Assembly: GCF_007748195.1 (NCBI RefSeq) | Contig: NZ_CP037920.1 | Span: 7,312,062 to 7,376,061 of the forward strand | Direction: 5' to 3' | Source of the DNA: Gimesia aquarii | GTDB taxonomy: Bacteria > Planctomycetota > Planctomycetia > Planctomycetales > Planctomycetaceae | DNA: 64,000 bases | Part shown: in pieces, positions 10,118-12,368 of the stretch | How the letters are laid out: every line of letters starts with the position of its first letter | How positions within the stretch are numbered: position 1 is the stretch's first letter | Notes under the pieces: model-generated | The model's database searches: none | What the model was told of the DNA's origin: nothing | The model's input: only the letters and a program-made list of their open reading frames with translations | Translations under genes and position numbers: made by a program

Positions 10118-10954
10118 ATGACTAACTGGATTCCACTGGGAAGTGCATCAGAAATTTCTCCAGGCAATCGTAAAGTATATGCGCTTAAGGGAACTGAGAT
10201 CGCAGTTTTCCATGTCGCCAATAAAGGGCAGCCAGGGGAATTCTACGCCATTCATGACTGTTGTCCACACCAGGGAGCTTCTCTGGTCGAAGGAGAGGGC
10301 ACGGGAACGGAAATCGCTTGTCCGCTCCATGACTGGACTTTTGATGTTGCTTCGGGAGAGTGCCATGACTTTCCAGAGTTTCCTTTGACTCGCTATGAAC
10401 TCAAAGTAGAAAACGACAACATTCTGATCGAGGCATCCGCATTTGAAGAACTAGACATTCAAGATCATCTTTTCCTGGTACGATATGGAGCGATGGGCTG
10501 GATTGATCACTTCTCGGCAGAAGAAGATGCCGCTTTTTCACACCGTGATCGTATTATTTTAAAAACAAGTCGAGGTGAAGAAATCGGAGAGATTCTTTCG
10601 AAGGCCATCAATCAGGATAACTCGATCACTCCTGCCGGGTCGATTCTGCGCATGTTTACTCCTACAGACCAGCAAAAGTTATTACAGCAGGAAGATATTA
10701 CAACGCACGTCTTACAAGATTGTCAAAGTTTGATACAAGAACGCGGAATGCCCACCGAAATCATAGACTGCGAGCAATTATTTGATCAACAAACGGTCGT
10801 ATTGTACTATCTGGGGAATCGTATGCCTGCTTTAGAAATACTCGCTCAAGAGCTTAATGCCAATTATGCCTGGCGGATTGTATTCCATCCCGTTGACGAA
10901 GCCCCCGCACCGTCGGGCTGTTCAAGTGGCGGTTGTGGCTGCGATCAAAAATGA
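10118..10954 (+). CDS. Rieske [2Fe-2S] domain fused to a PSP1 domain
   Basis: The protein has 278 residues in two parts. Residues 1-105 form a small Rieske ferredoxin of NirD type with cluster ligands C49, H51, C68 and H71 (CPHQG and CPLHDW). Residues about 118-258 match the PSP1 family (RicT/YaaT-like): SRGEEIGEIL, LRMFTPTDQQKLL and a C-terminal half with TVVLYYLGNRM. A Cys-rich tail has C268, C273 and C275. PSP1 proteins in Bacillus (RicT) work with RicA and RicF in a complex that carries iron-sulfur clusters and affects mRNA maturation. A Rieske fusion would add redox sensitivity, but that function is inference. The gene starts a + strand run with an M19 homologue 64 bases downstream. No signal peptide, so cytoplasmic. 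Confidence 0.8.
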   Translation: MTNWIPLGSASEISPGNRKVYALKGTEIAVFHVANKGQPGEFYAIHDCCPHQGASLVEGEGTGTEIACPLHDWTFDVASGECHDFPEFPLTRYELKVENDNILIEASAFEELDIQDHLFLVRYGAMGWIDHFSAEEDAAFSHRDRIILKTSRGEEIGEILSKAINQDNSITPAGSILRMFTPTDQQKLLQQEDITTHVLQDCQSLIQERGMPTEIIDCEQLFDQQTVVLYYLGNRMPALEILAQELNANYAWRIVFHPVDEAPAPSGCSSGGCGCDQK

Positions 10955-11018
10955 GCGAACCTGCAGAATCGTATCTGATAACCTACCACACCAACCATCC
11001 TCACCAATGGAATTCAAC

Positions 11019-12368
11019 ATGAAAAACCCCGTTAACCGCCGTTCGTTCCTGGGTACTTCACTCGGTATCGCCGCCACGAGTCTGGGCGCAGCGAAGACAT
11101 CTAATCTAACCGCGGCAGAAAAAGAAGTAACTGCGACAAAGACACCAGTGAAACCCAAACCCATTCAAAATGAAACCATTCTCCATGCACGAAAAGTCGC
11201 ATTGGAGATATTGAAACCGACACCAAAGCAATTGGAACATGGGCTAAAACTACATGCGGATTCACTAGTATTCGACGCTTACGGATTTGCACCGCGGGCC
11301 GCCGTTGATGGCGATCAGTTAGCTGCGGCGATTAAAAAACATGCTTCATCAGCTGAGCTCAAGGATTTAAGAGAAGACATGTCAATGACGCGCTGCGTGA
11401 CCGACCCAGCAGAGCAACGGGAATTCAAAGAGGCATTCGACGCGGCCGGAGTAACCTGTGTCTTCCAAAATGCTGGCGAAGAAGGGCAGGACCCCTTGCG
11501 ACTCATCAAACGACTGGCTCGGTTCACTTATACAACAGACATGCTATCCGATTTTGTTTCCAAGGCAGTCACCCCAGATGACATTTTGCAGGCGAAACAA
11601 GACGGACGTCATTGTTTATATCTGACAGGCAATGGTGTTCCTTTAACTCAGCAATGGGTAACAACCACCGATGAAATGAAATATATGCGAATCTTTTATC
11701 AGTTGGGAATTCGCATGATGCACATGACTTACAATCGCCGTAATATGCTCGGCGATGGCTGTGCAGAACCCGCTAACGCCGGTTTGAGTGACTTTGGTCG
11801 GGAAGTGGCCGCTGAAATGAACCGGTTGGGAATTATTCCGGATGTCGCACACTCCGGCTGGCAAACGAGCCTGGAAACAGCTCAGGTCTCAAAGCGGCCC
11901 GTTGTCGCCAGTCACACTACCTGTAATACGCTGCACCACCATATTCGCAGCAAACCGGATAATGTCATTAAAGCCATCGCTGATACGGGAGGATTAATTG
12001 GAATCTGTTGTATTCCCCGTTATCTGGGTGGGAAGGGAGATATCAGTGCGTTACTGGATCAGATCGATTATGTTGTGAAAAAGTTTGGTATCGACCATGT
12101 GGCAATCGGGACCGATGTTTCATACACATCGCGCAACAGTGCTTTGGAAAACAAAAAAATACCCCGCACACCACGCTCTCGAAAACCATGGCGAAGTTTA
12201 TGGCCTGCGGATCCGTTTGTAGAAACCCCTGAAATGCGAACCAGCATCGCCTGGACGAACTGGCCTCTGTTTACTGTAGGTCTCGTGCAGCGGGGCTACT
12301 CCGATACCGACGTACAAAAAATCATCGGCGGCAATATCCTGAGAGTTTGCCAGCAGTCATTTTCCTGA
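11019..12368 (+). CDS. Peptidase M19 (renal dipeptidase) family protein, Tat-exported, divergent metal site
   Basis: I start at ATG 11019, because a Tat signal (NRRSFLGTSLG) follows at once; the longer frame overlaps the previous gene. The mature part is a TIM-barrel of the membrane dipeptidase family: DVAHSG (H278), VASHT (H299) and AIGTDVSY (D366) match conserved metal and substrate positions. The usual N-terminal HxD pair is replaced by FDAYGF (residues 85-90), and the usual bridging Glu region reads YLTGNGV (201-207). Dipeptidase activity is therefore uncertain; it may act on another small amide or bind one metal only. It lies between the Rieske-PSP1 gene and an epimerase gene with short gaps, so probably one transcript. 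Confidence 0.8.
   Translation: MKNPVNRRSFLGTSLGIAATSLGAAKTSNLTAAEKEVTATKTPVKPKPIQNETILHARKVALEILKPTPKQLEHGLKLHADSLVFDAYGFAPRAAVDGDQLAAAIKKHASSAELKDLREDMSMTRCVTDPAEQREFKEAFDAAGVTCVFQNAGEEGQDPLRLIKRLARFTYTTDMLSDFVSKAVTPDDILQAKQDGRHCLYLTGNGVPLTQQWVTTTDEMKYMRIFYQLGIRMMHMTYNRRNMLGDGCAEPANAGLSDFGREVAAEMNRLGIIPDVAHSGWQTSLETAQVSKRPVVASHTTCNTLHHHIRSKPDNVIKAIADTGGLIGICCIPRYLGGKGDISALLDQIDYVVKKFGIDHVAIGTDVSYTSRNSALENKKIPRTPRSRKPWRSLWPADPFVETPEMRTSIAWTNWPLFTVGLVQRGYSDTDVQKIIGGNILRVCQQSFS

Follow-up and report, generated by a model that had tools for sequence, protein, structure and literature searches.

To our knowledge, the PSP1 domain is known chiefly through RicT (YaaT; NCBIfam NF041131). The [4Fe-4S] ligands of RicT from Bacillus subtilis are given as C161, C166, C198 and C203 (PMC6751060). 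Another described protein of relevance here is BsaP, an auxiliary protein of mycobacterial BioB, which contains cysteines, is mostly encoded beside bioB and is thought to carry an Fe-S cluster, and BioB itself requires an electron donor (PMC11099021). The gene described here lies in the window, the term used for the whole 64,000-nucleotide stretch of the Gimesia aquarii genome that was analysed (NZ_CP037920.1, positions 7,312,062 to 7,376,061), and it joins a Rieske domain, a PSP1 domain and a Cys-rich tail in one reading frame. Neither a Rieske-PSP1 fusion nor a link between PSP1 and bioB was met in the literature searched by titles and abstract openings.

Architecture of the fusion gene

The fusion is encoded by an ORF of 278 amino acids on the plus strand, which starts with ATG, ends with TGA and has no internal stops. 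Its parts are given below, together with the two adjacent genes, which are included for context only.

10118..10954, plus strand: Rieske-PSP1-Cys tail fusion gene, 278 aa (from the ORF, Pfam, relatives and class genomes)
10124..10435, plus strand: Rieske-type [2Fe-2S] ferredoxin domain, residues 3-106 (PF00355 on residues 3-88)
10262..10264, plus strand: Rieske ligand C49
10268..10270, plus strand: Rieske ligand H51
10319..10321, plus strand: Rieske ligand C68
10328..10330, plus strand: Rieske ligand H71
10436..10465, plus strand: variable linker, residues 107-116
10466..10903, plus strand: PSP1 region, residues 117-262, which stops short of the RicT cluster-binding region
10640..10888, plus strand: PF04468 match inside the PSP1 region, residues 175-257 (Pfam)
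10904..10951, plus strand: C-terminal Cys tail, residues 263-278
10919..10921, 10934..10936 and 10940..10942, plus strand: tail cysteines C268, C273 and C275
9452..10060, minus strand: 5' nucleotidase of the NT5C type, divergent neighbour, syntenic within the genus
11007..12368, plus strand: M19 membrane dipeptidase, downstream neighbour, syntenic within the genus, with an ambiguous in-frame ATG start

The N-terminal part scores 69.4 bits with the Pfam Rieske model PF00355 (gathering cut-off 20.3) and contains the CxH..CxxH pattern, with C49, H51, C68 and H71 at the positions named in the original prediction. Its top sequence matches in the PDB are Rieske ferredoxins, for example 5bok and 2qpz, which cover residues 2-106 only. 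The motif reads CPHQGA..CPLHDW and lacks the extra Cys pair that marks the high-potential, bc1-type Rieske proteins; judged from its sequence, the domain would carry a low-potential [2Fe-2S] cluster. Seven Rieske matches are present in the Gimesia aquarii genome, at G000:C1:3662813-3663094 and elsewhere; one of the seven is within an open frame of 997 aa, and only the one in the window coincides with a PSP1 match.

The assignment of the C-terminal part to PSP1 was borne out by PF04468 with 42.5 bits (gathering cut-off 27), and the three tail cysteines C268, C273 and C275 were found where they had been predicted. The Cys-rich tail is probably a metal or Fe-S site. None of the matched Pfam or NCBIfam models spans both halves, in agreement with the earlier claim that the fusion lies outside standard annotation.

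The description of the PSP1 part as RicT-like holds for its core only. As judged from the profile match, this part is homologous to the RicT core, but at 40.9 bits it falls below the curated cut-off of 70 of the NCBIfam RicT model (NF041131), and the match covers positions 1-118 of 213, the region of the RicT cluster-1 ligands being absent from the fusion. The CGx(2-3)CC motif is found in none of 23 fusions and none of 41 short PSP1 proteins; two such motifs occur in one ORF at 12/12 RicT loci and at five loci of the proteins named here RicT-Rieske, a full RicT followed by a C-terminal Rieske domain, this same motif having been used to choose the RicT and RicT-Rieske ORFs.

Distribution, origin and the second PSP1 slot

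Six relatives of the fusion were found in MAG contigs, one of them partial, and five near relatives align over the full length with 71-85% identity and all seven Cys/His residues invariant. A profile of eight diverse fusions detected full-length fusions in at least 35 of 397 genomes and at least 12 of 185 genera of the class, the 35 being a lower bound as weaker matches are possible. A sequence error splitting the ORF, which the original prediction had named as a possible refutation, does not agree with this number of full-length fusions. Among the matches listed, the fusion is present in all 15 genomes of the window's genus, with at least 18 further fusions across nine other genera of its family and, outside the family, one each in the families f112 and f2. 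All 35 full-length fusions listed retain CxH..CxxH, and at least three tail cysteines are present in all 33 listed fusions from the window's family. In five pairs compared by NG86, dN is far below dS in the Rieske domain, the PSP1 region and the tail, and the linker is loosely constrained. Long Rieske ORFs in the genomes G021 and G046 were dropped as fusions because Pfam gives them Rieske-type domains only. The fusion of G618 (L183, 3272-4333, minus strand) has a C-terminal extension with a CPVC..CNC motif that is zinc-ribbon-like in appearance.

The gene order around the fusion is kept within the genus at 9/9 loci compared, two of which (L005 and L052) are one contig. Across 22 loci, no gene family besides the fusion or PSP1 is common to more than two of the 12 fusion lineages. 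The neighbours within the genus (nucleotidase, M19 dipeptidase, epimerase and an LRR protein) were not accepted as partners.

Stand-alone short PSP1 proteins with a Cys tail, named here PSP1-S, are more widespread, with a short-PSP1 profile matching 346 of the 397 class genomes at E <= 1e-12. Most genomes have two PSP1 matches among the matches listed, and where examined, one of the two is RicT and the other is either PSP1-S or the fusion. When 15 fusion genomes were searched with a profile of PSP1-S from the window's own family, 14 showed exactly two PSP1 genes: the fusion and a second gene, called RicT-like by its frame length. G508 is the only one of these 15 that also has a PSP1-S. The fusion occupies the "second PSP1" slot, which is filled by PSP1-S elsewhere. 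The fusions of G530 and G618 have no Cys tail, and each of these genomes also encodes a PSP1-S that has one; in G530 this PSP1-S lies on the same strand, 453 bp from the tail-less fusion. The 145-aa ORF between these two genes (L142, 3611-4048, minus strand) has no Pfam match. A loose CxH..CxxH pattern is present in one of the 41 PSP1-S rows.

A midpoint-rooted tree was constructed from 81 PSP1 domains (23 fusions, 41 PSP1-S, 12 RicT and 5 RicT-Rieske), in which G743 and G618 have long branches. Here, 22 of the 23 fusions share one side of a branch (99/97), with the fusion of G508 placed apart. The five RicT-Rieske rows cluster together (100/100) among the RicTs. PSP1-S splits in two, with 16 rows in a group of the window's family (100/100) and 25 in a group of other families (99/98); the latter, bioB-linked group is distinct from the main fusions as well as from the family's own PSP1-S. 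Because G508 and RicT-Rieske fall elsewhere in the tree and the domain order is reversed in the latter, the join of Rieske and PSP1 is likely to have arisen about three times. The Rieske tree (44 rows) is poorly resolved, and separate recruitment of this domain, or its number, is not evident from it.

Genomic context and possible function

Among the matches listed, both PSP1-S and bioB occur in 77 genomes outside the window's family; in 65 of these the two genes are no more than 2 kb apart, in 64 of the 65 divergently, and the remaining pairs are located on other contigs (8) or far apart (4). For this count the rows of the window's family were excluded, and of the 90 PSP1-S rows left, 13 had no listed bioB row. 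G530 has two PSP1-S genes, the lower-scoring of which adjoins bioB and the higher-scoring of which is not adjacent; counting this genome by the lower-scoring gene gives 66 near, 65 divergent and 7 on other contigs, and counting by the better row gives the 65, 64 and 8 used here. The median gap, computed on the 66-pair count and measured between the matched stretches, is 282.5 bp. A bioB motif was found within the locus stretch at 21 of 29 PSP1-S loci outside the window's family and at none of 24 loci from the window's family within the stretch read, the motif-based and distance-based counts drawing on overlapping genomes. The identity of one such neighbour as BioB was checked (403.8 bits, cut-off 225). 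Short Cys-tailed RicT paralogues beside bioB, L044, L048 and L050 among them, come from many planctomycete families. The bioB-adjacent PSP1-S is possibly a BioB auxiliary protein.

The fusion itself is distant from bioB in the window's genome (7.32 vs 4.33 Mb), and as the bioB-linked PSP1-S form a separate branch, the link to bioB is carried over from relatives and does not come from the fusion's own branch. Nor does BioB need PSP1-S, since ten genomes of family f3 with one PSP1 match and genomes of family f110 with none still have a strong bioB. A bioB match over the cut-off is absent in G713, G715 and G743, which have a fusion, and in G498, which has a PSP1-S (completeness 96, 91, 90 and 99%, respectively).

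RicT-Rieske shows a context of its own. It is present in 5/5 genomes of the family f80 (L061-L065), and among the matches listed for 392 phylum genomes these five were the only full-length ones. An IspG motif was found on the same strand in 5/5 of these loci and in 0/12 RicT loci without Rieske; in four loci an ispG ORF lies upstream of RicT-Rieske, and two of these were confirmed as IspG, which NCBIfam names flavodoxin-dependent. The context of the sister proteins, bioB and ispG, speaks for iron-sulfur enzymes no less than for RNA processing.

We tentatively favour the reading that the fusion assists iron-sulfur enzymes in the cytoplasm as a redox accessory, with BioB as the lead client by association only. 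It would be a two-module cytoplasmic redox protein, in which a Rieske ferredoxin and a short PSP1 domain are connected by a short variable linker. The PSP1 part would dock on the client, the Rieske domain, once loaded with its cluster, would pass on one electron or sense the redox state, and the Cys tail would hold or hand over metal or sulfide. The client would be an iron-sulfur enzyme, and BioB heads the candidates because PSP1-S is associated with its gene.

A redox-gated RNA-processing factor, as suggested in the original prediction, is nearly as likely. In this case, PSP1 would act like RicT in binding RNA or RNase Y, the Rieske domain would add redox dependence, and the Cys tail may substitute for tail ligands of RicA/RicF. 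Apart from the homology to the RicT core, this agrees with an RNase Y encoded in the window's genome (654.3 bits, cut-off 454.35), but the RicT ligand region is absent from the fusion and a full RicT is already present in the genome, where it also served as the control (247.2 bits with NF041131). Homologues of ricA and ricF, which the original prediction had suggested looking for, were not found, as the RicA/RicF family PF06133 gave no match in the window's genome and was detected in B. subtilis as a control. Pairing of the related short PSP1 genes with bioB also argues against RNA processing.

Structure prediction bears on this reading as well. The full-length AlphaFold model, based on six close sequences, was not used (mean pLDDT 45.3). 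In a model of the PSP1 part only (mean pLDDT 61.2), residues 80-144 are the better part, and the confident part has the order helix-strand-strand-helix-strand. Foldseek returned no match for it at E 0.05 or better; several of the top matches are to RbfA or to 3gku, an RNA-binding protein, and ribosome chains some 205 residues long are also among them, all at E 0.07 or worse. We take these chains to be S3 and the matched proteins to be KH folds. The weak fold matches may hint at RNA-binding proteins, as may a sub-threshold Pfam match to KH_TffA (E 0.051) on the RicT-Rieske protein of G161, but AMP-ligases and type III secretion ring proteins are listed with similar scores.

The accessory reading can be extended to the planctomycete PSP1 proteins as a whole, which would then form a family providing general redox and iron-sulfur services to reductively driven [4Fe-4S] enzymes, to BioB through PSP1-S and to IspG through RicT-Rieske, with the Rieske fusions bringing their own electron carrier. 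We consider this speculative and rather improbable; if true, the RNA-processing role of RicT would be an offshoot of a more ancient role in iron-sulfur biology.

Less probable again is a regulatory role, in which PSP1-S and the fusion would sense the Fe-S or redox state through tail and Rieske domain and control the expression or mRNA stability of bioB or ispG. A divergent layout with short gaps, as seen for PSP1-S and bioB, is common in regulator-target pairs, and the RNA-binding hints from Foldseek would fit; however, the Pfam matches of the fusion and of the other proteins run through Pfam include no DNA-binding domain, and in the window's genome the fusion and bioB are far apart. It is more doubtful still that the fusion is a lineage-specific join without functional coupling, the halves acting separately and being merely co-expressed. 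The variable, loosely constrained linker and the absence of widely shared neighbours are compatible with this, but the likely origin of the join on about three occasions, with both domain orders represented, and its presence in at least 12 genera of the class and in 5/5 genomes of f80 speak against it. An assembly or sequencing artefact is ruled out by the recurrence in separately assembled genomes, the intact frames and the purifying selection.

Comparison with known systems

The fusion belongs with the PSP1/RicT kind and is not a new kind of system. It shares the PSP1 core with RicT/YaaT (positions 1-118 of the NF041131 profile) and differs from it in lacking the cluster-1 Cys region, in carrying a Rieske domain at the N-terminus as well as a Cys tail, and in its score (40.9 vs 70). 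With the Rieske-type ferredoxins of dioxygenases (5bok, 2qpz) and with NirD it has the domain family and the four ligands in common; the best matches among the dioxygenase ferredoxins and oxygenase subunits have no PSP1 part, and with NirD (TIGR02378) the fusion reaches 59 bits compared with a curated cut-off of 74.65.

Within the planctomycetes, PSP1-S resembles the fusion in the PSP1 part, the Cys tail and the genome slot, but has no Rieske domain, is mostly paired with bioB outside the window's family and forms separate groups in the PSP1 tree. The RicT-Rieske of f80 contains the same two domain families, but as a full RicT with both CGxxCC motifs and a C-terminal Rieske domain, encoded beside ispG; because of the tree and the domain order, it appears to have an origin separate from that of the window-type fusion. 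The recurrent joining of PSP1 and Rieske is a lead towards a cooperation of PSP1 proteins with redox carriers.

BsaP can be compared with PSP1-S by analogy only: both contain cysteines and are mostly encoded beside bioB, in the case of PSP1-S outside the window's family, but bsaP lies mostly downstream of bioB, whereas PSP1-S is divergent from it. The tight pairing of a RicT paralogue with bioB is a lead that many planctomycetes may have a dedicated BioB accessory protein with a role comparable to that of BsaP.
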